A stretch of DNA of 64,000 nucleotides from Streptomyces sp. NRRL S-337 (GTDB taxonomy: Bacteria > Actinomycetota > Actinomycetes > Streptomycetales > Streptomycetaceae): assembly GCF_000720175.1 (NCBI RefSeq), contig NZ_JOIX01000039.1, positions 6,881-70,880 on the forward strand. Reading direction: 5' to 3'. The position numbers and the translations under genes were made by a program. The notes under the pieces are model-generated. The model had not been told where the DNA came from. It saw only the letters and a list, made by a program, of their open reading frames with translations, and ran no database searches. Below, in pieces: positions 39,732 through 63,768 of the stretch (its first letter is position 1; every line of letters begins with the position of its first letter).

Positions 39732-39745
39732 TAGAACGCGTTCTA
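39732..39745. promoter_or_regulatory. KstR-type operator upstream of MaoC cluster
   Basis: TAGAACGCGTTCTA, a perfect palindrome (extends to 16 bp, 39731-39746) that fits TnnAACnnGTTnnA, the mycobacterial KstR consensus. A KstR-like regulator is encoded at 63118. Confidence 0.75.
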
Positions 39746-39792
39746 GCCGATGGCCTTCATGTATAGCCGATCCGCCCGGCACCGGGAAGCCC

Positions 39793-39809
39793 TCTGACGG
39801 TTTGTCAGA
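39793..39809 (+). promoter_or_regulatory. Inverted repeat, possible response-regulator site 1
   Basis: TCTGAC-GGTTT-GTCAGA. It resembles the site at 39886 (both contain TGAC...TTTGTCA). Upstream of the ABC transporter/two-component operon. Confidence 0.5.
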
Positions 39810-39885
39810 AACGCGTCGCGGCCGGGGTGGGCCCTGAGTCGTTGCCGCGGTCCGCGCCCACGAGTCCTTGCCCGGTCCGCGCCCA

Positions 39886-39897
39886 TGACATTTGTCA
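39886..39897 (+). promoter_or_regulatory. Inverted repeat, possible response-regulator site 2
   Basis: TGACA-TT-TGTCA, 85 bases before the ABC ATPase start. DesR-like regulators bind similar TGACA/TGTCA dyads (TCATGACA type). Likely site for the operon's own regulator, now encoded at 46547. Confidence 0.55.
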
Positions 39898-39981
39898 GGG
39901 GTCATCACCCACATTCGCCCCTGCCCCGGCCCGCCCACGCTCCGTAACGTCATGGACAGGAAACGACCGAAGGGGGCGGAC

Positions 39982-41046
39982 ATGGCACCGGGTACGACAT
40001 CGGGCAGGGCACCGGATACGACACCGGAGACGACACCAGGCAGGGCACGGACGACGGCGCACGGGGGCCCGGTGGGGCGGGGCGGCGGCGGGACGGCCGT
40101 GGCGTTCTCCGGTGTCACCCGGAGTTACGGCACGGTGCGGGCCGTGGACGGCATCGACCTGCGGATCGCCGCCGGCGAAACGGTGGCGCTGCTCGGCCGC
40201 AACGGCGCCGGCAAGTCCACCACCCTGAACATGCTGCTGGGCCTGCTGCCGCCCTCCTCGGGCACGGTGCGGCTGTTCGGCGGCGAGCCGGAGAGCGCCG
40301 TACGAGCCGGCCGGGTCGGGGCGATGCTGCAGGACGGCAAGGCCATCCCCCGGGTTACCGTCCGCGAGCTGGTCGGCTTCGTGGCCGCCACCTACCCGCG
40401 GCCGATGGACGTCACCGAGGCGCTGGAGCTGGCGGGCCTGGCCGAGTTCGCCGGGCGGCGGGTGGACCGGCTCTCCGGCGGCCAGGCCCAGCGCGTCCGG
40501 TTCGCGGTGGCGCTGGCCGGCAACCCCGACCTGCTGGTCCTCGACGAGCCGACCGCGGCCCTGGACGTGGAGGCCCGCCGGACGTTCTGGCGCGCGATGC
40601 GGGCGTACGCCCGGCGGGGCAACACCATCGTCTTCTCCACCCACTACCTGGAGGAGGCGGACGACCACGCCGACCGGATCGTGGTGATCGACCGGGGCCG
40701 GGTGGTCGCCGACGGCAGCGGCGAGGCGATCAAGCGGCGGGCCGGCGGGTCGCTGGTCTCCTTCGACCTCGCGGGCGCGCCGACCGCGCCGCTGTCCGCA
40801 CTGCCCGGCGTACACACCGTGGAGATCCGCGGCGACCGCGCCCTGCTGCGGACGGCGGACTCCGACGCCACGGTCCTGGCACTGGCGGAACGGGGCCTGA
40901 TCCGCGGCCTGGAGGTCACCGCCGCGAGCCTGGAGGACGCCTTCCTCGCCCTCACCTCCCCCGACCGCGCGGACTCCGACGCCCCGCACCACGACGTCGC
41001 GAACCCCGACGCCCCGACCCACGACGCCCTGAAGGAGACCGCGTGA
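39982..41046 (+). CDS. ABC transporter ATP-binding protein (DrrA-like)
   Basis: 354 residues. After a Thr/Gly/Pro-rich leader of 38 residues come Walker A GRNGAGKST (72-80), LSGGQ (164-168) and Walker B LLVLDEP (184-190), with H-loop STHYLEEAD. The C-terminal 100 residues resemble the drug-exporter accessory domain, ending in an Asp/His/Ala repeat. Energises the membrane partner that follows with a one-base stop/start overlap. The ATG at 39982 follows AGGGGGCGGAC. First gene of an operon with permease, histidine kinase and, before disruption, its response regulator. Typical of DesKR-linked exporters responding to membrane stress. Confidence 0.93.
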   Translation: MAPGTTSGRAPDTTPETTPGRARTTAHGGPVGRGGGGTAVAFSGVTRSYGTVRAVDGIDLRIAAGETVALLGRNGAGKSTTLNMLLGLLPPSSGTVRLFGGEPESAVRAGRVGAMLQDGKAIPRVTVRELVGFVAATYPRPMDVTEALELAGLAEFAGRRVDRLSGGQAQRVRFAVALAGNPDLLVLDEPTAALDVEARRTFWRAMRAYARRGNTIVFSTHYLEEADDHADRIVVIDRGRVVADGSGEAIKRRAGGSLVSFDLAGAPTAPLSALPGVHTVEIRGDRALLRTADSDATVLALAERGLIRGLEVTAASLEDAFLALTSPDRADSDAPHHDVANPDAPTHDALKETA

Positions 41047-41774
41047 TGCTCGCCTACCTCCGTCTCGAAGTCCGCCGTACGCTGCGCGACCGGGGCTTCG
41101 TGATCTTCGGCATCGGCATGCCGGTGCTGATGTACGTCCTGATGACCAACATCGGCACCGGCACCGGCGGTGCCGACATGGGCTGGCGGACCGCCTCGAT
41201 GGTCGGGATGGCCGCGTACGGCGCGCTGGGCGCGGCGATCGGCACCGGCACCGGCGTCGCCGAGGACAAGCAACTGGGCTGGCTGCGGCAGCTGCGGATC
41301 ACCCCGATGGGGCCGCTGCGGGCCGTGGTGGGCCGCGGACTGACCGGGTCGGTGACGGTGCTGCCGGCCATCGCCGCGGTGCTGCTGGTGGGCGCGCTGG
41401 TCAACGGCGTCCGGATGCCGGCCTGGCAGTGGGCCGCGCTGGCGGGCCTGCTGTGGCTCGGCACCGCCCCGTTCACCCTGCTCGGGCTGGGCAACGGCTA
41501 CCGCCTCTCGGCACAGTCCACCGGGGTGGTGAACACGGGCTGCATGCTGCTGCTCTCGATCATCGGCGGACTGTGGTTCCCGGCCGAGCTGTTCCCCGGC
41601 TGGCTGCGCGCCCTGTCGGCCTGGACGCCCGGCAACCGCTTCGCCGAACTGGGCCGCAGCGTCACCGAGGGCGGCGCACCGAGCCTCACGGCAGTGGCGG
41701 TGCTGGCCGCCTGGCTGGCAGTCTTCGGCGGTTACGCGGTGTACGCGTACCGGCGGGCCGCACGGACGGTGTGA
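41046..41774 (+). CDS. ABC transporter permease (ABC2 type)
   Basis: 242 residues with six hydrophobic helices, starting MLAYLRLEVRRTLRDRGFVIF. The family motif before the last helices reads ELFPGWLRALSAWTPGNRF. Exports an unknown lipid or drug with the preceding ATPase. Start ATG 41046 overlaps the ATPase stop (TGATG); GTG 41043 is an alternative with a GTGA overlap. The kinase gene starts seven bases after its stop, so all are one transcript. Confidence 0.92.
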   Translation: MLAYLRLEVRRTLRDRGFVIFGIGMPVLMYVLMTNIGTGTGGADMGWRTASMVGMAAYGALGAAIGTGTGVAEDKQLGWLRQLRITPMGPLRAVVGRGLTGSVTVLPAIAAVLLVGALVNGVRMPAWQWAALAGLLWLGTAPFTLLGLGNGYRLSAQSTGVVNTGCMLLLSIIGGLWFPAELFPGWLRALSAWTPGNRFAELGRSVTEGGAPSLTAVAVLAAWLAVFGGYAVYAYRRAARTV

Positions 41775-41780
41775 CCCGCG

Positions 41781-43181
41781 ATGGCGCACATGGCACAGAT
41801 GGCACGGACCGGGGAAGCGACAGTGCAGCGGACGACAGAGCAGGACCCCGCAGGCGGGACGCCCGGCGGGGCGGCGGGGACGGACGGGGTGGCCGGCGGC
41901 GGCGCGTCGTGCTCGTCGAAATGGACACCCGGCCGGAAGCCCGACAAGGGCCCGGGCAAATACTCCTTCCTGCCCTGGCTGCTGATGGGGCTCGGCGCCT
42001 TCTCCAACATCGTGCAGGGCAAGACCGGCAACCCCTGGCTGGCCGGCCTCGGACTGCTGGCCTTCAACTCCTTCTACCTCACCGTCATCTGGTCGGCCTT
42101 CAGCCCCCGGCTCCGGGACACCCGCTACCCGGTCGTGGCCCTGGGCGTGCTCACCGCCATCACGTTCGCCATCGCGCTCGGCTTCGGCGGCAGCTGGTTC
42201 CTGTTCTTCCCGCTGCTGTCGCTGGCCTCCGGTACGGTCCGCGCGCTGCGCGGCAGGAAGCTGGCGCTGTGGCTGATCACGCTCAGCGGTACGGCCGGGT
42301 TCCTGTCCGGCTGGCAGGCCGGCGACCCCAGCGACGCGTTCGGCGTCGGCTACGGCACGTTCCTCTCCGGCATGGTGACGTCCACGGTGCTGAGCCTGTT
42401 CGACACCATCCAGGAACTCCGGGCCACCCGGCAGGAACTGGCCCGCAGCGCCGTGGAGAAGGAGCGGCTGCGCTTCTCCCGGGACCTGCACGATCTGCTG
42501 GGACACACGATGTCCCTGGTCGTGGTCAAGGCCGAGGCGGTGCGCCGGCTGGCGCCGCGCGATCTGGACGCGGCGCTCGCCCAGGCCTCGGACATCGAGG
42601 CGGTCGGCCGGCAGGCGCTGACCGAGATCCGCGAGGCGGTCACCGGCTACCGCGAGGGCAGCCTCAGCACCGAACTGGACCGGGCCCGATCGGCGTTGGA
42701 AGCGGCCGGCATCGAAGCCGTCGTCCGGCAGGCCGGGCCGCCGCTGCCCCCGCAGGCCGGTGCGCTGCTGGGCTGGGTGGTCCGCGAGGGCGTCACCAAC
42801 GCGGTCCGGCACAGCGGCGCCACCCGCTGCGAGATCGCGGTGCACGCCGACGAGGAACGGGTCCGGCTGACGATCACGGACGACGGCCGGGGTCCCGTAA
42901 GCTCCGGTGCGGCCCCGGCGGCCGGCCGGACCTGGTTCCGCGCCCGCGTCCCCGGACCCGACGGCGACGCCGCCGGTACGGACTCCGCGGACGGCGCCGC
43001 CACGCCGCCCGGAACGCCGGGCCCGGTCGGCGGCACCGGCCTGAAGGGCCTGACCGAACGGCTGGCAGCGGCCGGCGGCACCCTGAGCAGCGGCCCCGAC
43101 GGCCGGCGCGGCTTCCGGGTGACGGCCGAACTGCCGGTGGGGACAGGGGAGATGACGGAGACGGAAGGGTTGACCAGGTGA
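41781..43181 (+). CDS. DesK-like sensor histidine kinase
   Basis: 466 residues, with four or five membrane helices (about 65-185) acting as the sensor. Next is a HisKA_3 dimerisation domain with the phospho-acceptor H237 in RDLHDLLGH, then a HATPase domain with N-box EGVTNAVRHS and G1 TDDGRG. Between G1 and the GTGLKGLTERL G2 box is an unusually long insertion of about 46 residues, Pro/Ala/Gly/Asp-rich, in the ATP lid. It senses membrane state in DesK homologues. Its stop overlaps the GTG start of the broken response regulator as GTGA, the normal coupling in such operons. Confidence 0.93.
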   Translation: MAHMAQMARTGEATVQRTTEQDPAGGTPGGAAGTDGVAGGGASCSSKWTPGRKPDKGPGKYSFLPWLLMGLGAFSNIVQGKTGNPWLAGLGLLAFNSFYLTVIWSAFSPRLRDTRYPVVALGVLTAITFAIALGFGGSWFLFFPLLSLASGTVRALRGRKLALWLITLSGTAGFLSGWQAGDPSDAFGVGYGTFLSGMVTSTVLSLFDTIQELRATRQELARSAVEKERLRFSRDLHDLLGHTMSLVVVKAEAVRRLAPRDLDAALAQASDIEAVGRQALTEIREAVTGYREGSLSTELDRARSALEAAGIEAVVRQAGPPLPPQAGALLGWVVREGVTNAVRHSGATRCEIAVHADEERVRLTITDDGRGPVSSGAAPAAGRTWFRARVPGPDGDAAGTDSADGAATPPGTPGPVGGTGLKGLTERLAAAGGTLSSGPDGRRGFRVTAELPVGTGEMTETEGLTR

Positions 43182-43210
43182 TCAAGGTCCTGCTCGCGGA
43201 GGAGGAGTAG
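43178..43210 (+). pseudogene. 5' fragment of response regulator gene
   Basis: GTG 43178 begins MIKVLLAEEE and then hits TAG. In intact homologues this continues LLAEDQGMM. The downstream continuation is present at 46589 onward in the frame of the regulator at 46547. This is the left junction of the insertion. Confidence 0.85.
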
Positions 43211-43387
43211 CCCCTTAGACACCTCACTCTGACCAGCGGATTCCCGGATCGGGAAGCCGCTGCGCTCCAGGTGCTCCGAGCGGATGCCTACTTCAACAGT
43301 GACCAGGTGGCCGTACGCGGCACCATGCGCGTCGGGTTCGGCTACCCGCACCCGGCGGCAATCACCAAAGTCACGCTCACCGCGTAG
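43211..43387 (+). pseudogene. C-terminal fragment of a foreign (phage?) protein
   Basis: Continuing in frame after the TAG of the broken regulator, about 58 codons read LTLTSGFPDREAAALQVLRA and on to GYPHPAAITKVTLTA before TAG at 43385. The sequence has real protein character but no start. It is likely the 3' end of a gene cut by integration or deletion. A TGACTTGGGGG/CCCCCTCGGTCA hairpin follows directly. I cannot name the family. Confidence 0.5.
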
Positions 43388-43391
43388 CGCT

Positions 43392-43420
43392 CTGACTTGG
43401 GGGGATACCCCCTCGGTCAG
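43392..43420. terminator. Hairpin after the foreign gene fragment
   Basis: TGACTTGGGGG and CCCCCTCGGTCA arms around a short loop, with two mismatched positions. It lies just past the TAG at 43385 and may be the original terminator of the truncated gene. Confidence 0.55.
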
Positions 43421-43598
43421 TCACGCCGGACCGCAAGCGTATAGCAGCTCGGATCGTGTACGGGTTCCAAGGTCGTTAGGGGCGAGGGGCAGCATCATCT
43501 GACTCCGTCCAGGACCCTGAAAGGTCGGGTAAAGGTCGTATAGAAGACGGGTGGAAAGACGTGTTCATGGCGTGGTCGTCCTCGTTAGCGTCCCAGCC

Positions 43599-43736
43599 AT
43601 GGAAATGATGCAAGCTCTTCCCATCTTCAGCTCTGCCCTGTCTGCCGTTGTCTTGGTAGCGGTTGCCCACCCGGATCCGGCTATCCGTGAGCGAGCGGTC
43701 CGTGTTCTGTCGCTGGTGTTCGGCAGGCGTCGCTAG
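43599..43736 (+). CDS. Small hydrophobic peptide (45 aa), phage-region
   Basis: Starts MEMMQALPIFSSALSAVVLV, one membrane-spanning stretch, then a basic tail ending SLVFGRRR. It sits directly before a hairpin terminator and the first terminase-small-subunit remnant. Phage holin-like or unknown small membrane protein are possibilities. No strong ribosome binding site, but the hydrophobic pattern and AT-richer codons set it apart from background. Confidence 0.45.
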   Translation: MEMMQALPIFSSALSAVVLVAVAHPDPAIRERAVRVLSLVFGRRR

Positions 43737-43750
43737 GGTCCACACATATG

Positions 43751-43774
43751 GCGCCCCGGTAGCAACTGACCGGG
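43751..43774 (+). terminator. Rho-independent terminator in phage remnant
   Basis: GCCCCGGT, 8-base loop, ACCGGGGC, then TCCTTTAT. It separates the small peptide from the first terminase remnant. Confidence 0.75.
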
Positions 43775-43810
43775 GCTCCTTTATGCCTGTCCTGTTAAGG
43801 AGGTGACACC

Positions 43811-43988
43811 ATGCCGGGCCGTCCCGAAGCGCAGTGACCAGCGCCGGAGGCGCAACAAGAGCGACGGCCCGGACCTGGTGAAGGCCCCCGGCAGGGCGGG
43901 GCTGCTCAAGGCAGTGGCAGGAAGGTTCGTCCACCACATGTTCAATGGATTGTCCACCACGCGGCTCCTGCACCGCTGGCAGTGGTGA
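43811..43988 (+). pseudogene. Phage terminase small subunit N-terminus, copy 1 (frameshifted)
   Basis: An excellent AAGGAGGTGACACC precedes ATG 43811, but the frame reads only MPGRPEAQ before TGA. Reading the other frame restores VPKRSDQRRRRNKSDGP, the start of P27-type terminase small subunits, so bases have been lost near 43822. After about 90 bases the similarity to copy 2 ends and the frame closes at 43988. Non-functional. Confidence 0.7.
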
Positions 43989-44182
43989 GGAGCCCCACGA
44001 CCCATGCGGGGATGCGCTGGATGGTCAAGTGGAGTCCACCACAGCGAAGTTCAAACACGGGTCGAGGTGTGGATTCAGGCATGGCCACTCCAGTTCAAGA
44101 TTGGGCGCGACCTATCGCGAGGCTGCGATGGCTCGGCGTTGGGTGTATTGGAGCGCCGAACTCTGCCTGATACAAACTCACT
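43989..44182. other. Phage-remnant intergenic, no supported gene
   Basis: AT-richer sequence between the two terminase remnants. Three overlapping short frames exist, none with a recognisable domain. Ends at the operator repeats. Confidence 0.4.
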
Positions 44183-44246: not shown

Positions 44247-44338
44247 TCACTGATTTCATCTGGCGGTTTCACAGATATTTGCCTGCCACTTGAAAACGAT
44301 GTATCGGGTGCTCGTTGGGCTGCATGGGAGGTGGCACT

Positions 44339-48809: not shown

Positions 48810-49984
48810 GACTTGGGCGGCTATTGGTGTTCGGATGTGTTGCCCTGGGGTCTGGCTGGTCGGTGTCAGCAGACCGTTGGGTGGACGAGCACCAGTTCGG
48901 TGCTCGGCTTGTGGCGGGTGGCCCGCTGGGCGGCGCGGTCGGAGACCAGGCTGGCGACGGCCCGGTGGGTGGCCGCGTAGTGCTGGCGTCTTCCCGTGAA
49001 CCGCTGGAGCGGGCGCCACTGCTTGTGCTCGGCGTTGGCGTGCTCAACGCAGATCCGTCGTGAGGACTGACGTCTGCGCTGCTCGCGCCAGGCGTACCGC
49101 TCGCCAAGCGGGGCATCGTCCTTCGGCTTCTTCGGAGGGGCGGTGACCTGACCGGGAAACTCGTTCGCCAGGCCCCGGTAGCCCTCGTCGACCTCGGCCT
49201 TCACATCTGGGTGCAAACGGAATTGTTCGGCAATGCCCTCGCTGCGCATCGCGGTCTGGTCGTGCATCCGCCCAGGACGGTCGGCTCCGGACCACAGGGT
49301 GCGGCCCTGGCCATCACTGATCGTCGTGGTCTTGATCGTGTTCTGCTTCTTCTTCCCGGAGACGAACGCGCGGCGGCCGGGCCGGTGAGCCCTGGGACGG
49401 CGGACTTGGGTCTCGGTGCCGTCAATCCGCAGCGTCTTCCCCTCCGCGGCCGCGTAGGCGAACACGTCGGCCAGGGTCCGCAGCCGCAGACCGGGCCGAT
49501 CGGGCACGGCGAAGCCGCGATCGGCGAGCAGCGGCCGGATCTCGCCGATGGCCTCGGTCACGGTGGAGCGGCCCACCCCATAGAGCTCGGCGAGCGCGGC
49601 GTGCGGGAGCTGGGTGCGCAGGTGGGCCAGGGTGACCAGCACTCGGTCGGTGAACACCAGCTCGTGCTTGCGTCCTGCCCCGGCGGCACGTTGCCGGTCC
49701 CCGCCCCGACGGTCACGCAAGACCGACTCCCGCCGCGCCTGCCACGGACCAGTCAACTCCTCAATCAGAATGCTGAGATGTGTGAGGGAGACGCCAGTGA
49801 AGGCAGGACGCGACAAGGCCGTGCGGGCCCACTTCGTTCTCACACGGGGAGAACCTGTGTAGCCCGCTCTCACCTCACGACCGATCTTCAACGGGCGTAG
49901 CTCTTCCTCATAGGCTGGACGGGAAGTTTGCAAGGGCGTGCCGCCTGATAGCGGGCCTCGTGAACGCGCTGATGCTCCCAAGTC
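48810..49984 (-). mobile_element. IS5-like insertion sequence, ends tentative
   Basis: The transposase gene fills most of it. GACTTGGG at 48810-48817 and its complement CCCAAGTC at 49977-49984 are candidate terminal repeats, giving 1175 bp, a reasonable IS5-group size. Eight matching bases is weak and I see no clear target duplication. Confidence 0.4.
48866..49843 (-). CDS. IS5-family transposase, DDE_4 type with HTH_4
   Basis: About 325 residues. An N-terminal helix-turn-helix (AHLRTQLPHAALAELYGVGR then STVTEAI) is followed by the DDE core: D in RIDGTETQ, D in DEGYRG and E in VEHANAEHKQW. The KKKQNTIKTTTI strand lies between. All catalytic residues are present, so it may be active. Start is uncertain; GTG 49843 gives VRTKWARTALSRP, and a TTG 46 codons upstream extends the frame to 49981. 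It lies between the MFS gene and an unknown gene, with no passenger genes. Confidence 0.88.
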   Translation of the reverse strand: MRTKWARTALSRPAFTGVSLTHLSILIEELTGPWQARRESVLRDRRGGDRQRAAGAGRKHELVFTDRVLVTLAHLRTQLPHAALAELYGVGRSTVTEAIGEIRPLLADRGFAVPDRPGLRLRTLADVFAYAAAEGKTLRIDGTETQVRRPRAHRPGRRAFVSGKKKQNTIKTTTISDGQGRTLWSGADRPGRMHDQTAMRSEGIAEQFRLHPDVKAEVDEGYRGLANEFPGQVTAPPKKPKDDAPLGERYAWREQRRRQSSRRICVEHANAEHKQWRPLQRFTGRRQHYAATHRAVASLVSDRAAQRATRHKPSTELVLVHPTVC

Positions 49985-50001: not shown

Positions 50002-50523
50002 TCAGCCCTCTCTGACGATCTCACCATCCTTGATCACGAGCAGTTTGGTGATGACGGCATCCTCATAGAAGCGCTCATACCCAACGTATTGACCGAAGCC
50101 TCCGCTTCTGGGTGAGCCGTCGAATTCGACGTAGTCGTAGTCGGCATGGGTAGCGAGCCAGCTGAGCAGCGGGTCGACGTTATCGAAGTCGTCGGGATGC
50201 AGCGCCTGGCGAGTCGTCAGCGCCCACCCGGGACGCGGGCCCTCTCGCCGTGCCAGCTCCGAGACCGTCGCTCCGCCGATTCTCCAGGCCGGACCCCGTT
50301 GGGCCAGCACCGGATACGGAGCGTTCTCCACTCGCCACTCGCCCTGGTCATCCAGCACCGGCTTGGAGTTGTCGTCAAGCACCACCTCGGGAAACTCACT
50401 AATGATGCAGAGCCGTTCAGGCTGCGGACCGAGGCCAAGGTGCCATCGGAGCTCGGCGACCTCGTCCGCTGACAGATCATCTTTGAGGTCGAGGGTGAGA
50501 AGGAAGTCGTAAGCGTCAGCCAT
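50002..50523 (-). CDS. Hypothetical protein (173 aa)
   Basis: Acidic soluble protein, MADAYDFLLTLDLKDDLSAD, with WHLGLGPQPE, RVENAPYPVLAQRGPAWRIG and a C-terminal YVGYERFYEDAVITKLLVIK. No known family; a single alpha/beta domain is likely. Less GC-biased than neighbours, hinting at horizontal origin, and it abuts the IS with about 18 bases between the IS edge and its stop. It could be an immunity-like or accessory protein, but nothing proves this. Homologues with the same domain would settle it. Confidence 0.7.
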   Translation of the reverse strand: MADAYDFLLTLDLKDDLSADEVAELRWHLGLGPQPERLCIISEFPEVVLDDNSKPVLDDQGEWRVENAPYPVLAQRGPAWRIGGATVSELARREGPRPGWALTTRQALHPDDFDNVDPLLSWLATHADYDYVEFDGSPRSGGFGQYVGYERFYEDAVITKLLVIKDGEIVREG

Positions 50524-50805: not shown

Positions 50806-51999
50806 TCACCTCCGCAGCAGCGTCACCACCGCCGCGCCGCCCAGGCCGATGTTGTGGGCCAGGCCCACGTGGGCGTCGGGGACCTGGCGGGCACCGGCCG
50901 TGCCGCGGAGTTGCCAGACGAGTTCGGCGGCCTGGGCGAGGCCGGTCGCGCCCAGGGGGTGGCCCTTCGAGATCAGGCCGCCGGACGGGTTGACCACCCA
51001 GCGGCCGCCGTACGTGGTGGCCCCGTCGGCGACCAGCTTCCCCGCCTCGCCGTCCGCGCACATGCCCAGCGCCTCGTAGGTCAGCAACTCGTTGATCGAG
51101 AAGCAGTCGTGCAGCTCGATGACGTCCACGTCCTCGATGCCGAGCCCGGACGCCTCGTAGACCTGCCGGGCGGCGGCCCGCGACATCGGCTTGCCGACGA
51201 CGTCGATGCAGGAGCCGGAGGCGAAGCTCTCCTCGGTGTCGGTGGTCATCGCCTGGGCGACGATCTCCACCGCCCGGTCGGCCAGTCCGTGCGTCCGGAC
51301 GAAGCGCTCGGAGGCGACCACCACCGCGGCCGCGCCGTCGGACGTCGGCGAGCACTGGAGCTTGGTCAGCGGGCGGTGGATGACCTTGGCTGCCAGCACC
51401 TCCTCGACCGTGTGGACGTCCTGGAACTGGGCGCGGGGGTTGTGCGCGGAATGCCGGTGGTTCTTGGCGCCGACCGCGGCCAGTTGCTCGGCCGTGGTGC
51501 CGTACCTCGCCATGTGCTCGCGGGCCGCGTTGCCGAAGATCTGAGCGGTGGGCGGGGTCCGCTCGAAACCGTGCGCGGCCGCCATGACGCCGTAGTGGCG
51601 GGCGACCGGGGAAGCGGCGAAATCGCCTCCCCCCGCACCGCCGCCCAGCGCGCCGCGCTTCATCTTCTCGAAGCCGAGCGCCAGCACACAGTCGTTGAGG
51701 CCCGAGGCGACGAACTGACGGGCCATCATCAGCGCGGTCGAGCCGGTGGCGCAGTTGTTGTTGACGTTGTAGACGGGGACGCCGGTCAGGCCCAGCTCGT
51801 ACGCGGCGCGCTGACCGGCCGTGGACGGCTGGTGGCAGAAGCCGACCGGCACCTGCTCGACGGCGTCGTAGCCGATCCCGGCGTCCGCGAGCGCCGCCTC
51901 GCCCGCCTCCTTGGCCATGTCCCAGTACTGCCACTCGCGGGTCTCGGGCTTCTCGAAGTGCGTCATCCCTACGCCGACGAGGTACGCCGTGCCTGCCAT
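50806..51999 (-). CDS. Thiolase / SCP-x-type lipid-transfer acetyltransferase
   Basis: 397 residues. Nucleophile Cys in [12 protein letters not shown], His in [11 protein letters not shown] and GHPLGATG with a C-terminal glycine-rich [10 protein letters not shown]. This is the non-decarboxylating SCP-x/Ltp branch used in fatty-acid and steroid side-chain degradation, where some members are aldolases or thiolases working with a DUF35 partner; none is visible here. It lies 104 bases downstream of the fused acyl-CoA dehydrogenase on the same strand, so the two probably form an operon behind the KstR-type box at 54311. ATG 51999 follows AGGAGG. Confidence 0.92.
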
Positions 52000-52103: not shown

Positions 52104-54299
52104 TCAGATCAGCGGGCGGGGCTCCGGGTCGCGGGGCAGCCCGAGCAGCCGCTCGGCGACGACGTTCCGCTGCACCTGGGTGGTGCCGCCGGCGATGGTC
52201 AGGCAGCGCGACATCAAGAAGCCGTGCAGGGCGCGTTCGCCGGCGCCCTCGCGCACCGCGCCGTCCGGGCCGAGCAGTTCCAGCGCCAGTTCGGCGACCT
52301 TCTGCTGGTGCGGGGTCTGCACCAGCTTGCGGATGCTGGCGCCGGCGCCCGGTTCGAGGCCGGAGACCTGCTGGAGCGTGGTGCGCAGCGTGAGGCAGGC
52401 CAGGGCGTGCGCCTCGGCGGCCAGGGCGCCCACCCGGGCCCGTACCGAGCCGTCGAGGCCGGCGGTGCGGTCCAGGAGCGCGGTCAGTCCGGTGTCGAAG
52501 GTCAACTGGTCGGCCATGTGGACGCGTTCGTTGTCCAGGGTGGTACGGGCCACCTTCCAGCCGTTACCGGTCTCGCCGACCACCGCGTCGGCCGGCAGCA
52601 GTACGTCGTCGAAGTAGACCTCGCTGAAAAGTGCCTCGCCGGTGATCTCCTTCAGCGGGCGGACGTCGATCCCGGGGGTCTTCATGTCGACGGCGAAGAA
52701 GGTCAGCCCCTTGTGTTTGGGAGCGTCCGGGTCGGTGCGGGCGAGCAGGATGCCGTGGTCGGCCCACTGGGCGGCCGAGGTCCACACCTTCTGTCCGTTG
52801 ATCCGCCAGCCGGGGCCGTCGGGGCCGTCCACCCGCTCGGCGCGGGTGCGCAGGCCGGCCAGGTCCGACCCGGCCTCCGGTTCGGAGAACAGCTGGCACC
52901 ACCGCATCTCCCCGCGCAGCGACGGCATCAGATAGCGCTGCTGCTGCTCGGCGGTGCCGTGGGCGAGCAGGGAGGGCACCACCCAGGTGGCGATGCCCAG
53001 ATCGCTGACGGTGACCCCGGCGGCGGCCAGTTCCTGCTGGACGGCCAGCTGCTGGACGGGGCCGGCGCCGAGCCCGTAGGGCGCAGGGAGGTGCGGTGCG
53101 GCGTATCCGGTGGGGGCCAGCTCGCGGCGGACGGCCGCGGGGTCCAAGCCGCGCACCCGGTCGATGACCTCGCGGGCCTCGGCGCGGAACTGCTCGGCGG
53201 CGGCCGGGAGTTCGAGGCGCAGCGGGCGGCGGGCGCCGTCGACGGCATAGGCGGCGGCGCGCAGCCGGTGGGTGTCGCCGGCGCCGAGCAGCTGGCGGGC
53301 CACGGTCGCCCGGCGCAGGTGCAGATGGGCGTCGTGTTCCCAGGTGAAGCCGATGCCACCGAGGATCTGGATGCAGTCCTTGGCGCAGCTGAAGGCGGCG
53401 TCGAGGGCGGTGGCGGTGGCGAGGGCGGCGACCAGCCCGCGGACCTCGGGCGGCTCGCGGTGGGCGCGGGCCGCGTCCCAGACCAGGGCGCGGGCCTGTT
53501 CGCAGCGGACGAGCATGTCGGCGCAGAGGTGCTTGACGGCCTGGAACTGGCCGATGGGGCGGCCGAACTGCTCGCGGACCCGGGCGTGTTGGGTGGCGGT
53601 GGCGAGGGCCCAGGCAGCCGTCCCGCAGCTCTCGGCCGCGTACAGCACCCCGGCCAGGTCGCGGACGAGCGCGGCGTCGATCGCCACCAGCCGGTCCGCG
53701 GGCACCGGGACGCCGTCCGCCCGGACCTCGGCGGTGGGCCGGGTCGGGTCGGCGCCGTCCTGGACGCGTACGGTCAGCGCCGCGGCGTCGACGGCGAGGT
53801 GGACGGTCCCGGTGGGGGCCCGCGCGGCGAGCACGAGGAGGTCGGCGTCGGCCCCGGCGAGGACCGGCGGCGCGGTGCCGTCGAGGCGGTAACCGTCGGG
53901 CACCCGGGTGGCGGTGAGCGTGCCGGGGCCGAGCGCCACGGCGCCGATCAGCTCGCCGGTGGCGAGGGCCCGTACGAGGTGCCGGTGCGCGCCGCCGTGG
54001 TGGAGCAGCGCGGCGGCGAGAACGGTGGGCAGGTACGGGCCGGGGAGTGCGGCGCGGCCCAGTTCCTCAAGGACCACGGCGAGGTCCAGGAGATCGCCGC
54101 CGCCCCCGCCGTCGGCCTCGGGGAGGTGGAGGCCGAGCAGGCCCTGGGCGGCGAGGCCGTCCCAGTGGGCGGGGCGCCCGGGGCGGGCGGGTGCGCTGTC
54201 GAGGAGTGTGCGGACCTCTTCGGGCGGTACGGCCCGGCGGGCCCAGCCGCCCGCCGCCTCGGCCAGGTCGCGGTGGTCCGGTGTGATTCCGATGCCCAT
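52104..54299 (-). CDS. Fused two-domain acyl-CoA dehydrogenase (FadE34-like)
   Basis: 731 residues made of two acyl-CoA dehydrogenase units. The N-terminal unit (about 1-380) keeps the FAD/CoA fold with RVREQFGRPIGQFQAVKHLCAD and the QILGGIGFTWEHDAH motif. The C-terminal unit (about 385-731) has FSEPEAGSDLA, GQKVWTSAAQWAD and the final AGGTTQVQRNVVAERLLG. Mycobacterial FadE34 (ChsE3), a steroid side-chain dehydrogenase of about 711 residues adjacent to kstR, has this same fusion. It would introduce the trans-2 double bond. ATG 54299 lies 12 bases after a KstR-type box, so repression by steric block is expected. Confidence 0.92.
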   Translation of the reverse strand: MGIGITPDHRDLAEAAGGWARRAVPPEEVRTLLDSAPARPGRPAHWDGLAAQGLLGLHLPEADGGGGGDLLDLAVVLEELGRAALPGPYLPTVLAAALLHHGGAHRHLVRALATGELIGAVALGPGTLTATRVPDGYRLDGTAPPVLAGADADLLVLAARAPTGTVHLAVDAAALTVRVQDGADPTRPTAEVRADGVPVPADRLVAIDAALVRDLAGVLYAAESCGTAAWALATATQHARVREQFGRPIGQFQAVKHLCADMLVRCEQARALVWDAARAHREPPEVRGLVAALATATALDAAFSCAKDCIQILGGIGFTWEHDAHLHLRRATVARQLLGAGDTHRLRAAAYAVDGARRPLRLELPAAAEQFRAEAREVIDRVRGLDPAAVRRELAPTGYAAPHLPAPYGLGAGPVQQLAVQQELAAAGVTVSDLGIATWVVPSLLAHGTAEQQQRYLMPSLRGEMRWCQLFSEPEAGSDLAGLRTRAERVDGPDGPGWRINGQKVWTSAAQWADHGILLARTDPDAPKHKGLTFFAVDMKTPGIDVRPLKEITGEALFSEVYFDDVLLPADAVVGETGNGWKVARTTLDNERVHMADQLTFDTGLTALLDRTAGLDGSVRARVGALAAEAHALACLTLRTTLQQVSGLEPGAGASIRKLVQTPHQQKVAELALELLGPDGAVREGAGERALHGFLMSRCLTIAGGTTQVQRNVVAERLLGLPRDPEPRPLI

Positions 54300-54310: not shown

Positions 54311-54324
54311 TAGAACACGTTCCA
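54311..54324. promoter_or_regulatory. KstR-type operator at the acyl-CoA dehydrogenase start
   Basis: TAGAACACGTTCCA fits TnnAACnnGTTnnA. It ends 12 bases upstream of the dehydrogenase ATG at 54299, so it probably overlaps the transcription start. Confidence 0.75.
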
Positions 54325-58559: not shown

Positions 58560-59363
58560 TCACCCGAAGCTCGCCCACTGGAGCCACTGGTCGAGCACCG
58601 CACGCTCGCCCAGCACCTCCACCCGGTCGCTGTCGGCGGGCAGCCTGCGGTAGAGGACCAGGAGGGCGTCGGTGAGGCTGCCGCGCAGCGCGACCGCCGC
58701 CTTCTCGTGGGTGCGGCGGTGGGTGGGCGCCTCCCCCGTGAGGTCGAGCAGCCACTCGGCGTCCAGCTCGGGCGGGGCGTCGGTGGCATGGACGTGGATC
58801 GTCCGGCCGGGGCCGAATGCCTCGCGGCCGCGCTCGGCGAAGCGGGCCACCACCATCGGCAGTTCGCTGATCTGCAGCCACTCCTCCAGACAGTCCGCGG
58901 CGACCGGCGCCGGGAGGTCGAAGGGGACGCCGGCGGTCAGCGCGGCGTCGGCGCGGTGGATGACCGTCTCATGGACCATCCGGCGGGCCCAGAACCCCGC
59001 GTGGTGGGCCGTCGTCCAGCTCCACACCTTGGTATCGGGCCCGGCTTCCCGCAGCGCGGCCACGGTCTGCTCGACGCCCGCCGCCAGCCAGGCGTCCAGC
59101 GCCGCCGCGTCCTCGCCCTCGGGCCCGTCGCCCTCGGGGACGTCCGCATCGTCGACGTTCTCCGAGGCGCGGGTGGCGACGAGCGTGCCGACCCAGCGAT
59201 GCGCACCCCCGACGTGCCGGGCGAGATCGGCGAGCGTCCAGTCGGGGCAGGTCGGCACGGTCGCCGAGAGATCGGCGCTGCGCACGATCTTCCGGAACCC
59301 GGCGGTCTCGGCCAGGAGTTGGGCGCAGTATTCCTCGTGGGTGAGGGAGCCTTGAAGAGTCAT
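58560..59363 (-). CDS. Maleylpyruvate isomerase-family, mycothiol-dependent (DinB-like) protein
   Basis: 267 residues. The N-terminal DinB-fold has PTCPDWTLADLARHVGGAHRW with the metal His, and MVHETVIHRADAALTAG with the H-x-x-x-H ligand set. A C-terminal SCP-like domain reads TIHVHATDAPPELDAEW and RGSLTDALLVLYRRLPAD. In actinobacteria these enzymes use mycothiol as thiol cofactor for isomerisation or detoxification, or act as Zn-dependent thiol transferases. Start ATG 59363 lacks a ribosome binding site; ATG 59384 is an in-frame alternative. Probably monocistronic. Confidence 0.9.
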   Translation of the reverse strand: MTLQGSLTHEEYCAQLLAETAGFRKIVRSADLSATVPTCPDWTLADLARHVGGAHRWVGTLVATRASENVDDADVPEGDGPEGEDAAALDAWLAAGVEQTVAALREAGPDTKVWSWTTAHHAGFWARRMVHETVIHRADAALTAGVPFDLPAPVAADCLEEWLQISELPMVVARFAERGREAFGPGRTIHVHATDAPPELDAEWLLDLTGEAPTHRRTHEKAAVALRGSLTDALLVLYRRLPADSDRVEVLGERAVLDQWLQWASFG

Positions 59364-59457
59364 GGGCCGCACAGTAGTGCGCATCGCGGACCCGGGGCGT
59401 CCTCTTTGCCGGCGCGCCGGGTCCGCTGATGCCGTGCGGCCCACGGCCGCGCCGCGC

Positions 59458-60528
59458 CTATCGGCAGCAGTCCGGGTCGAGCCCCGTCGGCAGCCCCTCG
59501 CCGCCGAACACGAGGGTGGTCGCCTCGTCGCCGCCCACGGCCGCCACCGCGAGCAGCAGCGAACCGGCCGTCCAGGAGGTGCGTTCGCGCGGCCAGATCG
59601 CCTCGTCGTCGAAGACGTAGCCGGTCCAGTACATGCCGTCCTCGGCACGCAGGTGCTGGATCCACTTGAGGATCGCGACGGCCCGTTCGGACTCCCCCAT
59701 CGCCCACAGCGCGAGCGCCAGTTCCGCGCTCTCGCCGCCGGTGACCCAGGGGTTGGGCAGTACGCAGCGCACGCCCAGGCCGGGCACCACGAAGCGGTCC
59801 CATTCGGCGTCGATCCGGTCCCGGGCCGCCTGGCCGCGGACCGCGCCGCCGAGGATCGGGTAGTACCAGTCCATGGAGTAGCGGGCCTTGTCCAGGAACC
59901 GCTCGGGATGGCTGCGTATCGCGTGGCCGAGCCGGCCGGCCGCCAGCTCCCAGTCCGGCTGCGGCTCCTCGCGCTGTTCGGCGAGCGCCAGCGCGCAGCG
60001 CAGCGCCTGGTAGATGGAGGACGAGCCGGTCAGCAGCGCGTCGCGGACCGGGGTGCCGTCGTCCTCCCGCTTCCAGCCGATCTCCCCGCCGGGCTGCTGC
60101 AGTTCGAGGACGTACTCGATCGCGGAGTGGACCGCGGGCCACATCCGGTCGAGGAAGGCCTCGTCGCCGGTGGACAGGTAGTGGTGCCAGACGCCGACCG
60201 CGATGTAGGCGCAGAAGTTGGTCTCCCGGCCGCGGTCGGTGGGCGCCTCGGCGTCCCCGTCGGCGTAGGCCGCGTACCAGGACCCGTCCGGGTTCTGGTG
60301 CCGCACCAGCCAGTCGTACGCGGCCTCGGCGCGCTCGTGTTCGCCGGCCGCGTCCAGGGCCATGGCGGCCTCGGTGTGGTCCCACGGGTCGAGGTGGTGG
60401 CCCCGGAACCACGGGATGGCGCCGTCCGTGCGCTGGGTCGCGAGGATGCCCTCGACCGTACGGGCGGCCTCTTCGGCGGTGAGCACCCCCGGCAGGACGA
60501 GCCGTTCGGTACGCCCGGGACTCGTCAC
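59458..60528 (-). CDS. Alpha/alpha-toroid (prenyltransferase/squalene-cyclase-like) protein
   Basis: 356 residues, GTG start at 60528 overlapping the methyltransferase stop as GTGA. QW-like repeats recur (LATQRTDGAIPW, VRHQNPDGSWYA, LELQQPGGEIGW), the signature of the toroidal fold shared by terpene cyclases, prenyltransferases and some glycoside hydrolases. No DxDD cyclase acid is seen; DPWDHTEAAMAL aligns better with glycoside-hydrolase-like members. Third gene of the glycosyltransferase, methyltransferase, toroid operon. It may process a polyprenyl or glycan part of the same product. Annotated in relatives as prenyltransferase, without proof. Confidence 0.85.
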   Translation of the reverse strand: MTSPGRTERLVLPGVLTAEEAARTVEGILATQRTDGAIPWFRGHHLDPWDHTEAAMALDAAGEHERAEAAYDWLVRHQNPDGSWYAAYADGDAEAPTDRGRETNFCAYIAVGVWHHYLSTGDEAFLDRMWPAVHSAIEYVLELQQPGGEIGWKREDDGTPVRDALLTGSSSIYQALRCALALAEQREEPQPDWELAAGRLGHAIRSHPERFLDKARYSMDWYYPILGGAVRGQAARDRIDAEWDRFVVPGLGVRCVLPNPWVTGGESAELALALWAMGESERAVAILKWIQHLRAEDGMYWTGYVFDDEAIWPRERTSWTAGSLLLAVAAVGGDEATTLVFGGEGLPTGLDPDCCR

Positions 60529-61379
60529 TTGGCGGCCCCGGCGGAGGACTTGGCGGATGCCTTGGCGGTGGACGTGGCGGCCTTCCGGGCGCGGGCGGCG
60601 GGCCGGGCGGCCGGTTCCGGCGTCTCGGCGGGCGCGCCCGCCTCATCGGCGGCGGGCGCCTCGGGCAGGTGCGGCTTGGTGGCGTAGACGACGAAGCTCT
60701 TGCCGATGACGGGGTTGAGGGCCCGCTCGGCGAGCCGGGTGGCGAGCGGCTTCTTCATGATGTCCCAGACCAGCAGCTTGTGGTACGCCTGCACCGGCAG
60801 CGCCTTGTCGTTGTCCACCCCGAAGGCGCACTTGAGCCACCAGTAGGGGCTGTGCAGCCCGTGGGCGTGGTGCGTGCCGTACGGCTCCAGGCCGGCCTCC
60901 CGCATCTTGCCGAGGAGTTCGTCGCCCCGGTAGATACGGATGTGGCCACCCTCGACCTCGTGGTAGGCGTCGCTGAGCGCCCAGCAGATCTTCTCCGGGC
61001 CGTAGCGCGGCACGGTGACGGCGATCCGGCCGCCGGGGCGCAGCACCCGCACCATCTCGGCGAGCACGCCCTTGTCGTCGGGGATGTGCTCCATCACCTC
61101 GGAGATGATGACGACGTCGAAGCTGTCGTCGGGGAACGGCAGGGCCAGCGCGTCGCCCTCCATGGCGGTGGCGGACGCGCCGGCCGGGGCCTCGCCCGCC
61201 TCCTTCATCGCGGCGAACCACTTGGCGACCTCGCGGATCTCGTCGCCGTTCTGGTCGAGGGCGACGACCTGCGCACCGCGCCGGTAACACTCGAAGGCGT
61301 GCCGGCCGGCGCCGCAGCCCAGGTCGAGCACGCGGTCGCCGGGAGCGAGCGGGAATCGGGAGAAGTCGACGGTCAGCAC
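60525..61379 (-). CDS. Class I SAM-dependent methyltransferase with basic tail
   Basis: 284 residues from GTG 61379. Methyltransf_11 core: VLDLGCGAGRHAFECYRRGA (SAM loop), FDVVIISEVMEHIPDD and MVRVLRPGGRIAVTVPR. Then a substrate lid with HGLHSPYWWLKCAFG, and a Pro/Ala/Lys-rich disordered tail (about 240-284, AKASAKSSAGAAK). UbiE/UbiG-like enzymes methylate quinones or sugars. Middle gene of the operon, 90 bases after the glycosyltransferase stop and overlapping the toroid gene. Confidence 0.88.
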   Translation of the reverse strand: MLTVDFSRFPLAPGDRVLDLGCGAGRHAFECYRRGAQVVALDQNGDEIREVAKWFAAMKEAGEAPAGASATAMEGDALALPFPDDSFDVVIISEVMEHIPDDKGVLAEMVRVLRPGGRIAVTVPRYGPEKICWALSDAYHEVEGGHIRIYRGDELLGKMREAGLEPYGTHHAHGLHSPYWWLKCAFGVDNDKALPVQAYHKLLVWDIMKKPLATRLAERALNPVIGKSFVVYATKPHLPEAPAADEAGAPAETPEPAARPAARARKAATSTAKASAKSSAGAAK

Positions 61380-61468
61380 GGCGTTCTGCTTTCGTCCGGC
61401 GGTGGGTGGCGGTGGTGCGGCAAACGGCGGCGGACCGCCCGGGAGGCGGCGCCGGTGAGGTGACGGAG

Positions 61469-62857
61469 CTATCTGCGGGCGGCGGACCGGCTGCCCTGGA
61501 GGGCGATGGCCTCGCGGTAGCGCTCGGCGGTGCCGAGGGCGGCCTGGCGCCAGGTGAAACGGGCCAGCACCCGCTCCCGGCCGGCCGTGCCCAGCCGGCG
61601 GCGCAGCTCCGGGTCGCCGAGGAGGCGCAGCAGCCCGGCCGCCAGCGCACCGGCGTCGCCCGGCGGCACCGCCAGACACGTCTCGCCGTCCGGCCCGGCG
61701 ACCTCCGGGATGGCGCCGCCGGTGGTGGCGAGCAGCGGGGTGCCGGTGGCCATCGCCTCGGCGGCGGGCAGCGAGAACCCTTCGTAGAGGGAGGGCACAC
61801 AGGCGATCTGGGCACTGCGTACGAGGTCGACGAGTTCGGGGTCGCTGATGCCCTTGACGAACTCGATGGCACCGGCCAGCCCGAGTCGTTCGATGGCGGC
61901 GGCGACCGGTCCGTCGTCGGCGCGCTTGCCGACGACCACCAGATGGGCGTCGGGGTTCTCGGTGCGCACCTTGGCGAGCGCCTCGACGAGGTGGATCAGG
62001 CCCTTGAGGGGGACGTCGGCGCTGGAGGTGGTGACGATCCGGCCCGGCACCTCGGCGACGGACGCGTCCGGCGAGAAGAGGTCGGTGTCGGCGCCGATGG
62101 GGACCACGTGGATCCGCTCGGGGTGGACCCCGAGGTCGTCGACGATCTCCTGGCGGGACGAGCCGGAGACGGTCAGCACGGACGGCAGCCGGCGGGCGAC
62201 CCGCTTCTGCATCCGGGTGAAGCCGTACCAGCGGCGGACCGAGGCGCGGCGCTTCCAGTCCGTGGCGGCGGCCAGGTCGAGCCGGCGGTCGACGGTGATG
62301 GGGTGGTGGATCGTGGTGACCAGCGGGGCGCCGAGCGCGCCGGGGCCGCCGAGCAGGCCGTAGCCGAGGGTCTGGTTGTCGTGGACCACGTCGAACTGGC
62401 CGCGGTGGGCCGCGAGATGCCGCCGGGCGCGCAGCGAGAAGGTCAGCGGCTCGGGGAAGCCGCCGGTCCACATCGTGCCCACCTCAAGGGCGTCGATCCA
62501 GTCGCGGTACTCGCCGCGCTTCGGCGTGCGGAACGGGTCCGGCTGGCGGTAGAGGTCCAGGCTCGGCAGCTCGGTCAGCCGCACGCCCTCGTCGAGGACC
62601 GGGTAGGGCTGGGCGCCGATCACCTCGACGGTGTGGCCGAGCCGGGCCAGCTCGCGCGAGAGGTGGCGGACGTAGACGCCCTGACCGCCGCAGAACGGGT
62701 TCCCCTTGTACGTGAGCATCGCGATGCGCAGGGGGCGCCCGTGGTTCTCGGCGGTGGTGGGCGCGGTGCGCTCCGGGCGCCCGTGGTCCTCGGGGGTGGT
62801 GGCCGAGGAGTCCCCGGCAGGGCGAGGCGCGGCTGCCTGAACGGCCTCTGCGGTCAC
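61469..62857 (-). CDS. Glycosyltransferase family 4 (GT-B)
   Basis: 462 residues from GTG 62857, with AGAAGGGGG upstream. A disordered 40-residue start (GDSSATTPEDHGRP twice repeated in character) leads to RIAMLTYKGNPFCGGQGVYV, the GT4 donor/acceptor glycine loop. HDNQTLGYGLLGG and IGADTDLFSP follow, and the C-terminal SLYEGFSLPAAEAMATG motif holds the E-x7-E donor-binding site. It transfers a sugar from a nucleotide or GDP donor to a lipid or small acceptor. First gene of the operon; the KstR-type box at 62912 lies 55 bases upstream and the kstR-like gene is divergent. Confidence 0.93.
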   Translation of the reverse strand: MTAEAVQAAAPRPAGDSSATTPEDHGRPERTAPTTAENHGRPLRIAMLTYKGNPFCGGQGVYVRHLSRELARLGHTVEVIGAQPYPVLDEGVRLTELPSLDLYRQPDPFRTPKRGEYRDWIDALEVGTMWTGGFPEPLTFSLRARRHLAAHRGQFDVVHDNQTLGYGLLGGPGALGAPLVTTIHHPITVDRRLDLAAATDWKRRASVRRWYGFTRMQKRVARRLPSVLTVSGSSRQEIVDDLGVHPERIHVVPIGADTDLFSPDASVAEVPGRIVTTSSADVPLKGLIHLVEALAKVRTENPDAHLVVVGKRADDGPVAAAIERLGLAGAIEFVKGISDPELVDLVRSAQIACVPSLYEGFSLPAAEAMATGTPLLATTGGAIPEVAGPDGETCLAVPPGDAGALAAGLLRLLGDPELRRRLGTAGRERVLARFTWRQAALGTAERYREAIALQGSRSAARR

Positions 62858-62911
62858 GCTCGGCCCCCTTCTCACTGGACTTTCGCCGGAGCGTAACCGC
62901 TGGCGGTAATC

Positions 62912-62925
62912 TAGAACAAGTTTCA
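62912..62925. promoter_or_regulatory. KstR-type operator between GT operon and kstR-like gene
   Basis: TAGAACAAGTTTCA fits TnnAACnnGTTnnA, less symmetric than the other two. It is 55 bases upstream of the glycosyltransferase start and 193 bases upstream of the regulator start, so it may control both. Confidence 0.7.
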
Positions 62926-63117
62926 GAACTGCTGGGCTACTGATCAGTTCACCGAGCTTCGAATCTACCGGCCGAGAACGATGCGAAAAGAGCCGCACCA
63001 GGTGATTCGCGCCACCACCCGACCCCCTGCCATGCTGTGCCGGTCGCGGCAGCGGCACTCACCACATCGCGGACAGAACGCCACGGACGGCCACGGAACA
63101 GCCATGGAATGGGAACA

Positions 63118-63768
63118 ATGACTACGGAATCCAAGGCAGCCAGGCCGGCGCTTCCCGCGAGTCCTCCCCTGACCGAGCGTCAGGAGGCCCGGCGCCGCCG
63201 CATCCTGCACACCAGCGCCAAACTGGCCTCCCGTGGCGGCTTCGACGCCGTACAGATGCGCGAGGTCGCCGAGTCCTCGGGCGTCGCGCTCGGCACCCTC
63301 TACCGCTACTTCCCGTCCAAGGTGCACCTGCTGGTCGCCACCATGCAGGACCAGCTCCAGCACATGCACGAGACGCTGCGCAAGCGCCCGCCGTCCGAGC
63401 AGGACCCGGGCGCCCGGGTCGCCCAGACCCTGATGCGGGCGTTCCGCGCCCTGCAGCGCGAACCGCACCTCGCGGACGCCATGGTCCGCGCCCTGACCTT
63501 CGCCGACCGCTCGGTGAGCCCCGAGGTCGACACGGTCTCCCGGCTGACCACGGCGATCATCCTCGACGCGATGCGCCTGGACGGCCCGCCCACCCCCGAA
63601 CAGCTCTCCGCGGTCCGCGTCATCGAGCACACCTGGCACTCGGCCCTGATCACCTGGCTCTCCGGCCGCGCCTCGATCGCCCAGGTCAAGATCGACATCG
63701 AAACGGTCTGCCGATTGATCGACGTGACGTCACCGGGGGCGGGGTCGGAGGCAGGGGTAGGGGCCTGA
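63118..63768 (+). CDS. kstR: KstR-like TetR-family repressor
   Basis: 216 residues. The DNA-binding part reads GGFDAVQMREVAESSGVALG then TLYRYFPSKVHLLVA, closely matching KstR (Rv3574), where GGYEAVQMRAVADRADVAVG and TLYRYFPSKVHLLV are found (from memory). The C-terminal domain also lines up (EPHLADAMVRALTFAD, WLSGRASIAQVKIDIE). KstR represses steroid and lipid catabolism and is relieved by steroid-CoA thioesters. Three matching boxes occur in this window. The ATG at 63118 follows GGGAACA. Whether its ligand is a steroid or a fatty acyl-CoA in this organism is unknown. Confidence 0.88.
   Translation: MTTESKAARPALPASPPLTERQEARRRRILHTSAKLASRGGFDAVQMREVAESSGVALGTLYRYFPSKVHLLVATMQDQLQHMHETLRKRPPSEQDPGARVAQTLMRAFRALQREPHLADAMVRALTFADRSVSPEVDTVSRLTTAIILDAMRLDGPPTPEQLSAVRVIEHTWHSALITWLSGRASIAQVKIDIETVCRLIDVTSPGAGSEAGVGA

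Follow-up and report, generated by a model that had tools for sequence, protein, structure and literature searches.

KstR, the main switch of mycobacterial cholesterol use, is known mostly from work on mycobacteria and on some other actinobacteria that degrade steroids. Here we describe a KstR-type repressor gene and its predicted boxes in Streptomyces sp. NRRL S-337, starting from a stretch of 64,000 nucleotides (the window; G000:C39:6881-70880), the right end of which is also the end of its contig, in a draft genome of 9.06 Mb in 227 contigs with a completeness of 100%. The repressor probably governs a genome-wide module restricted to the side chain, one that would carry out sterol-type activation and β-oxidation and leave the rings intact.

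The closest described system is the regulon of mycobacterial KstR (Rv3574/MSMEG_6042). The Streptomyces set shares with it a homologous repressor, the same 14-bp palindrome, a box in the repressor's own promoter region, and boxes at cyp125/fadA5, acyl-coenzyme A (CoA) ligase/echA19 and fadE34, mycobacterial names that are in part our assumption. We take Rv3545c/Rv3546 to be cyp125/fadA5 and Rv3515c/Rv3516 to be fadD19/echA19. Both are divergent pairs with boxes in the table of Kendall 2007 (PMC1995591). Unlike the mycobacterial regulon, ring-degradation markers were not found here and are unboxed where present in relatives, fadE34 is not adjacent to the regulator, the operons lie on several contigs, and a glycosyltransferase–methyltransferase operon is the most conserved neighbour. 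In Streptomyces coelicolor, SCO2319 was named as a possible KstR orthologue (32% identity, no conserved synteny) in a passage of Kendall 2007 that reports neither boxes nor targets for it (PMC1995591). SCO2319 is the presumed orthologue of our regulator and is named in no other paper within the literature searched; titles and abstract openings, mostly outside subscription journals, yielded no description of a KstR regulon in Streptomyces. A second system of interest is peroxisomal β-oxidation of bile acids and branched chains by multifunctional enzyme type 2 (MFE-2) and SCPx, parts of which the MaoC hydratase-2, short-chain dehydrogenase/reductase (SDR) and SCP2-thiolase of the window resemble, although here the genes are separate, bacterial and accompanied by KstR-type boxes, and a dehydrogenase stands in place of the oxidase.

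The regulator gene is as follows:

63118..63768, plus strand, KstR-type TetR repressor gene, 216 amino acids, with TetR_N and TetR_C_20 domains

The initial annotation had described this gene as strongly resembling KstR, and the homology proves to be full-length: of the 187 residues aligned with M. tuberculosis KstR, 77 are identical, and a PDB search returned five KstR-like chains at 130–134 bits, M. tuberculosis KstR (3mnl) first, with Mce3R next at 45 bits. The surroundings of the recognition helix are the segment most similar to KstR (24 of 31 residues identical, counted by eye), and the best NCBIfam model is NF033703 (KstR; 192 bits). As judged from sequence comparison, assignment of the gene at 63118 as a KstR-type regulator with cognate boxes is well supported.

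The pattern TnnAACnnGTTnnA has exactly three matches in the window, at the three places where the initial annotation had put boxes; none of 100 shuffled windows had three (mean 0.02). The boxes are:

39732-39745, no strand, KstR-type box TAGAACGCGTTCTA, 25.9 bits, a perfect palindrome 189 nt before the MaoC gene
54311-54324, no strand, KstR-type box TAGAACACGTTCCA, 32.6 bits, 11 nt before the start codon of the fadE34-like gene
62912-62925, no strand, KstR-type box TAGAACAAGTTTCA, 18.4 bits, between the regulator and the glycosyltransferase operon

Scores were obtained with a symmetric, 18-bp matrix built from the 47 mycobacterial KstR sites of Kendall 2007, Table 3 (PMC1995591), with a threshold of our choice. 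The 47 sites span 19.2–34.7 bits, with the regulator box just below this range. Across the 9.06 Mb of the genome there are 26 occurrences of the bare pattern, or about 0.18 per 64 kb, and 14 of the reversed control. The sites beyond the window number 23, of which 18 lie within a called open reading frame (ORF) and 20 score below 15 bits; C5:170889 is counted as intra-ORF solely because its ORF was drawn to the longest start. Simulation (three runs, order-3 Markov model of window composition) expects 5.3, 1.0 and 0.3 sites of at least 15, 18 and 22 bits per 9.06 Mb, whereas the real genome has at least 10, 8 and 3. Of the eight sites of at least 18 bits, seven lie between genes, next to the regulator or to genes for the oxidation of lipids or aldehydes. 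As to the concern, raised with the initial annotation, that the pattern might occur at chance frequency, the bare pattern is only about twice as frequent as its control, but the matrix-scored sites exceed expectation. Given the shuffles, the reversed control and the simulation, we rejected a chance origin of the boxes.

The genome site list was assembled through three pattern searches, so the counts are lower bounds and stronger deviants may be missed. Flanks were included in the scoring of all 26 exact-pattern sites. The two-mismatch search gave 67 sites, 50 of them listed; nine of these are discussed here or are exact-pattern sites, and the other 41 were scored on the core, some with flanks too. 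Of 35 sites listed in the third search, 28 were scored with flanks and seven on the core only. Core-only scoring separates sites poorly: the best other core, C1:355996, falls from 21.4 to 11.7 bits once flanks are added.

The regulon had initially been described as local. This is too narrow, as further matrix-scored boxes lie on other contigs before CYP125/FadA5, ChsE4, ChsE5 and ligase/EchA19 genes, and a purely local regulon was rejected. The sites outside the window are:

C122:11533, 23.0 bits, between a FadA5-type thiolase gene and a CYP125-type P450 gene
C122:2028, 20.8 bits, between an aldehyde dehydrogenase (ALDH) gene and an MBL-fold hydrolase gene (L042:357-3188)
C5:188200, 19.7 bits, between an acyl-CoA ligase gene and an EchA19-like enoyl-CoA hydratase gene
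C19:109151, 18.9 bits, before an acyl-CoA dehydrogenase gene (PDB 4x28 chain D, 180 bits)
C5:170889, 15.5 bits, before an acyl-CoA dehydrogenase gene (PDB 4x28 chain A, 450 bits)
C55:33368 (L326:3369), 21.8 bits, in the first codons of a hexapeptide-acyltransferase-like gene (named by eye)
C45:9351, 16.5 bits, inside an ORF

At the first of these, the thiolase matches M. tuberculosis FadA5 in the PDB at 502 bits (next kind, 249) and passes the cut-off of the NCBIfam steroid 3-ketoacyl-CoA thiolase model NF005889 (695 bits; cut-off 515), and the P450 matches CYP125 at 532 bits and CYP124 at 291. The hydratase on C5 misses the cut-off of the EchA19 model (371 bits; cut-off 400) and passes that of NF005864; after it come genes for a ChsH2-type OB-fold protein and for a thiolase-like protein whose only Pfam match is sub-threshold. 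We take 4x28 to be the ChsE4–ChsE5 complex of cholesterol side-chain oxidation. After 4x28, the C19 dehydrogenase matches Tcur3481 (Thermomonospora type) at 176 bits and then unrelated proteins at 83, and the C5 dehydrogenase matches Tcur3483 (Thermomonospora type) at 420 bits and then unrelated proteins at 153. The boxed set thus comprises cyp125, fadA5, fadE26/27-type (ChsE4/ChsE5), ligase/echA19 and fadE34-type genes. Directly after the boxed ChsE4-type gene lies a gene for an MpaB/Lcp-type oxygenase (L044:9191-10093, on C5), and the box on C55 lies opposite a γ-carbonic-anhydrase-like ORF (named by eye).

The ALDH/MBL box appears to belong beside the regulator. In S. nigrescens (L050), an identical 18-mer and the same two genes follow closely downstream of the regulator, which makes C122 very probably the contig that comes next to the window. 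Among 61 loci, the 9 kb downstream of the regulator contain the ALDH in 57 and the MBL-fold gene in 50. We assume that a mycobacterial ALDH/methyltransferase/glycosyltransferase group lies at Rv0223c–Rv0225, to which this region may correspond; no papers on it were found in the literature search. Kendall's table lists the motif at Rv0223c, where the gel shift was negative (PMC1995591).

The genes behind the window boxes are those named by the initial annotation, as judged from Pfam and PDB matches:

36365..37309, minus strand, SDR of the (3R)-hydroxyacyl-CoA dehydrogenase type (Pfam; PDB 2et6, 293 bits, and 7lg9, 287 bits; over the cut-off of NF005862)
37414..38529, minus strand, Zn-dependent alcohol dehydrogenase (Pfam)
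38667..39542, minus strand, MaoC/hydratase-2 of the MFE-2 hydratase type (Pfam)
50806..51999, minus strand, SCP2-thiolase (type-1)-like thiolase downstream of fadE34 (PDB 6hsj, 502 bits; next kind, 200)
52104..54299, minus strand, FadE34-like two-domain acyl-CoA dehydrogenase, 731 amino acids (Acyl-CoA_dh domains in two sets)
59458..60528, minus strand, MGH1-like protein, probably in the same operon as the glycosyltransferase (weak Pfam match to MGH1-like_GH, below cut-off)
60525..61436, minus strand, S-adenosylmethionine-dependent methyltransferase, start uncertain (Pfam Methyltransf_11)
61469..62857, minus strand, GT4 glycosyltransferase (Pfam), divergent from the regulator and 54 nt from the box

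The best PDB matches of the MaoC protein are peroxisomal multifunctional enzyme type 2 (1s9c, 186 bits) and enoyl-CoA hydratase 2 (7mku, 185 bits). The thiolase exceeds the cut-off of an NCBIfam lipid-transfer protein model, NF006102. Likeness to FadE34 rests on two features, the two fused acyl-CoA dehydrogenase domains and the KstR-type box. That fadE34 is boxed was borne out; its adjacency to kstR, stated for mycobacteria in the initial annotation, is not seen here.

Conservation was assessed at 80 loci kept from a regulator search (78 named Streptomyces) and, for gene counts, in a genus set of 199 genomes. Boxes were scored across the genus for the regulator, FadE34, FadA5, MaoC and ChsE4, and the ALDH/MBL box was compared by eye only; apart from the regulator, the sample was the best 30 genus matches per gene, this genome included. 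The TnnAACnnGTTnnA box in the regulator's own promoter region has a counterpart in all 80 loci, where the best site within 500 bp upstream reaches at least 11.4 bits, at 44 to 443 bp; for control windows of 530 nt placed elsewhere in these loci, the median is −9.0 bits. Twelve of the 80 loci have two KstR-type sites of at least 14 bits upstream of the regulator rather than one (L059, L061, L070, L073, L074, L078, L091, L095, L096, L102, L108 and L111). For each of the other four genes a box was found in 30 of 30 loci: FadE34 at 22.7–32.6 bits, 10–66 nt from the matched start, with a second site of at least 15 bits at four loci; FadA5 at 20.3–24.5 bits, 42–167 nt; MaoC at 19.1–27.9 bits, 96–202 nt; and ChsE4 at 15.5–28.5 bits, 45–93 nt. 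The boxes are thus kept while their distances to the genes vary.

Within the genus set, the regulator is present in 187 of 199 genomes (E ≤ 1e-50), MaoC in 162 (E ≤ 1e-60), FadA5 in 139 (E ≤ 1e-130), ChsE4 in 134 (E ≤ 1e-130) and FadE34 in 73 (E ≤ 1e-100), limits that admit divergent copies (FadA5-like at 58–64% identity, ChsE4-like at 55–60%, FadE34-like at 42–54%). The 134 genomes with ChsE4 all belong to the 139 that carry FadA5 (Fisher 2e-45), and FadA5 is also present in 72 of the 73 FadE34 genomes. This wide distribution of the regulator and FadA5 contrasts with Bergstrand et al. 2016, in which 55 of the 57 Streptomyces genomes were judged to have no steroid pathway and, in the text available to us, side-chain-only sets in Streptomyces are not discussed (PMC4810484).

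In the mechanism that we propose, a dimer of the KstR-type TetR repressor would occupy the 14-bp palindromes at or near the starts of the scattered operons and shut them off. An accumulated CoA thioester of a sterol, or of a very sterol-like methyl-branched isoprenoid acid, would free the repressor from DNA, and the operons, presumably co-transcribed units, would be turned on. CYP125 would oxidise the terminal carbon and the CoA ligase would then activate it; dehydrogenation would fall to ChsE4/ChsE5-type and FadE34-type enzymes, hydration and oxidation to EchA19 or MaoC/SDR, and cleavage to FadA5 or SCP2-thiolase. The side chain may in this way be taken off step by step, while in this strain the rings would stay intact. 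Every side-chain step probably has a gene behind a box, the SDR and SCP2-thiolase only as probable later genes of boxed operons.

Several observations weigh against this proposal. The regulator does not reach the equivalog cut-off of NF033703 (280 bits), and we therefore call it KstR-type rather than KstR. The fadE34-like gene starts 8.8 kb away from it, and a FadE34 match lies within 10 kb upstream of the regulator in 13 of 63 loci. At 15.5 bits, the ChsE4 box falls under the mycobacterial range and alone would be unremarkable, given the 5.3 sites of at least 15 bits expected; C45:9351 lies inside an ORF; and C55:33368, unexplained by the model, may be the one chance site expected. The conservation counts are weakened in that related genomes are non-independent tests and the best 30 per gene are not a random draw, and 56 of 2278 control windows reach 15 bits, many of them being other boxes of the same kind, incompletely sorted. 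With the regulator in 187 genomes, FadA5 in 139 and FadE34 in 73, the regulator must often occur without parts of the module. Finally, the most conserved boxed neighbour is the operon of the glycosyltransferase (80 of 80 loci, always divergent from the regulator), the methyltransferase and the MGH1-like protein (each in 75 of 80, some loci being incomplete), which has no known or obvious place in side-chain breakdown. Among the best 120 of 7998 matches to this glycosyltransferase, the organisms named are Streptomyces or Actinacidiphila.

The initial suggestion of steroid degradation holds for the side chain, with boxed CYP125, FadA5, ChsE4/5 and others, and fails for the rings, the markers sought being KshA, HsaC and, in this genome only, KstD (hsaA, hsaB and hsaD lay outside the search). 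KshA_C has no match in this genome and matches 59 of the 199 genus genomes, strongly in 18 (best match 288–321 bits) and at 101 bits or less in the others. An HsaC-like gene (query from L270, E ≤ 1e-60) was not found here and is present in 21 of 199, four at 85–100% identity and the rest at 43–50%. Strong KshA and an HsaC-like gene occur together in 17 of 199 genomes (17 of the 18 with strong KshA; G181 is without HsaC at this limit). KstD was not found among the 46 FAD_binding_2 matches of this genome, of which six are long and not KstD-like (SdhA, NadB and SdhA by inspection; SdhA-type, NF009472 and TcuA-like by NCBIfam) and the other 40, short or weak, were unexamined; the KstD-like protein of L270 scores 260 bits with the FAD_binding_2 model.

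Where ring genes do occur in the genus, they appear not to be wired to the same boxes. The KshA regions of 17 genomes (16–20 kb, one region each, G181, the second KshA copy of G103 and the separate HsaC-like gene of G012 being excluded) contain no KstR box of at least 15 bits (best, 14.0). A KstR2-type consensus, in the form that we take it to have, was also tried and found in none of these regions. FadE34 is present in 16 of the 18 strong-KshA genomes versus 73 of 199 overall (p = 2.6e-6, kinship uncorrected); the two therefore often co-occur, though not under the same box. KshA stands beside divergent FadE34-like (53–54%) and FadA5-like (63–64%) genes in G179, G155, G070 and G194 (L269, L270, L273 and L323, respectively), with no KstR box of at least 15 bits; L270 also has KstD-, HsaC- and HsaD-like proteins, below steroid-model cut-offs. 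These regions have FadE34-like and FadA5-like genes in common with the genome studied here, in which, unlike them, KshA and HsaC were not found.

As the ring pathway was not found, the substrate is either a sterol whose tail is shortened while the rings stay, or a branched acid resembling a sterol. In a rival reading the regulon is real but its substrate is no steroid: isoprenoid or methyl-branched acids (terpenoid or hopanoid tails, or the phytanic/pristanic type) would be degraded by MFE-2/SCP2-type, peroxisome-like β-oxidation with CYP125 and FadA5 homologues shifted in specificity. We consider this unlikely. That KshA, HsaC and KstD were not found would fit it, as would the resemblance of MaoC, SDR and SCP2-thiolase to general peroxisomal branched-chain enzymes and the lack of strong KshA in 122 of the 139 FadA5-positive genomes; however, CYP125 and FadA5 are far nearer to steroid enzymes than to any other solved kind, strong KshA is enriched among FadE34-positive genomes, and a Streptomyces CYP125 hydroxylates cholesterol in a paper in which a term search found neither KstR nor thiolase (PMC9728343).

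It is improbable that the targets of the TetR protein are mainly its own gene and the glycosyltransferase operon, with the other boxes serving another regulator of the same DNA preference. The constant glycosyltransferase neighbour and the retention of the regulator in 49 genomes with no FadA5 match would suit such a division, but the genus search gave a single regulator match per genome at E ≤ 1e-50, the regulator is present in 138 of the 139 FadA5-positive genomes, and the box consensus is that of mycobacterial KstR. A complete sterol pathway in this strain, its ring genes having escaped notice through divergence or gaps in a 227-contig assembly, is very improbable and was rejected because KshA, HsaC and KstD were not found: although 17 genus genomes do have strong KshA with HsaC-like genes, the KshA and HsaC searches that succeed there find nothing here, the assembly is rated 100% complete and the six long proteins among the 46 FAD_binding_2 matches are not KstD-like.

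Returning to the side-chain module, we tentatively extend it to the genus: the Streptomyces KstR regulon may be a widespread side-chain-only module uncoupled from the rings, ring clusters having perhaps been added separately in a minority. On this suggestion, the tails of sterols or bile acids might be clipped, or sterols modified otherwise, perhaps with the boxed glycosyltransferase/methyltransferase operon, and the rings left; the minority ring clusters, as far as read, might stand outside KstR control. If this were true, two older units would have fused to give the mycobacterial ‘cholesterol regulon’, and a side-chain-limited KstR-type regulon would suggest what the regulon did before ring catabolism was attached. 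The boxes and genes would also be on offer for making short-tailed, ring-intact steroid intermediates.

Two further features of the window concern its sequence context. Close downstream of the SCP2-thiolase gene lies an insertion-sequence-type transposase gene (HTH_Tnp_4/DDE_Tnp_4; 48866-49981), and a 173-amino-acid ORF (50002-50523) is located between the two. The final letters of the contig, 63961-64000, read CTGTCTCTTATACACATCTGACGCTGCCGACGA, which we take to be the Nextera/Tn5 adapter; it is probably untrimmed sequencing adapter, so that the last bases are not genomic.

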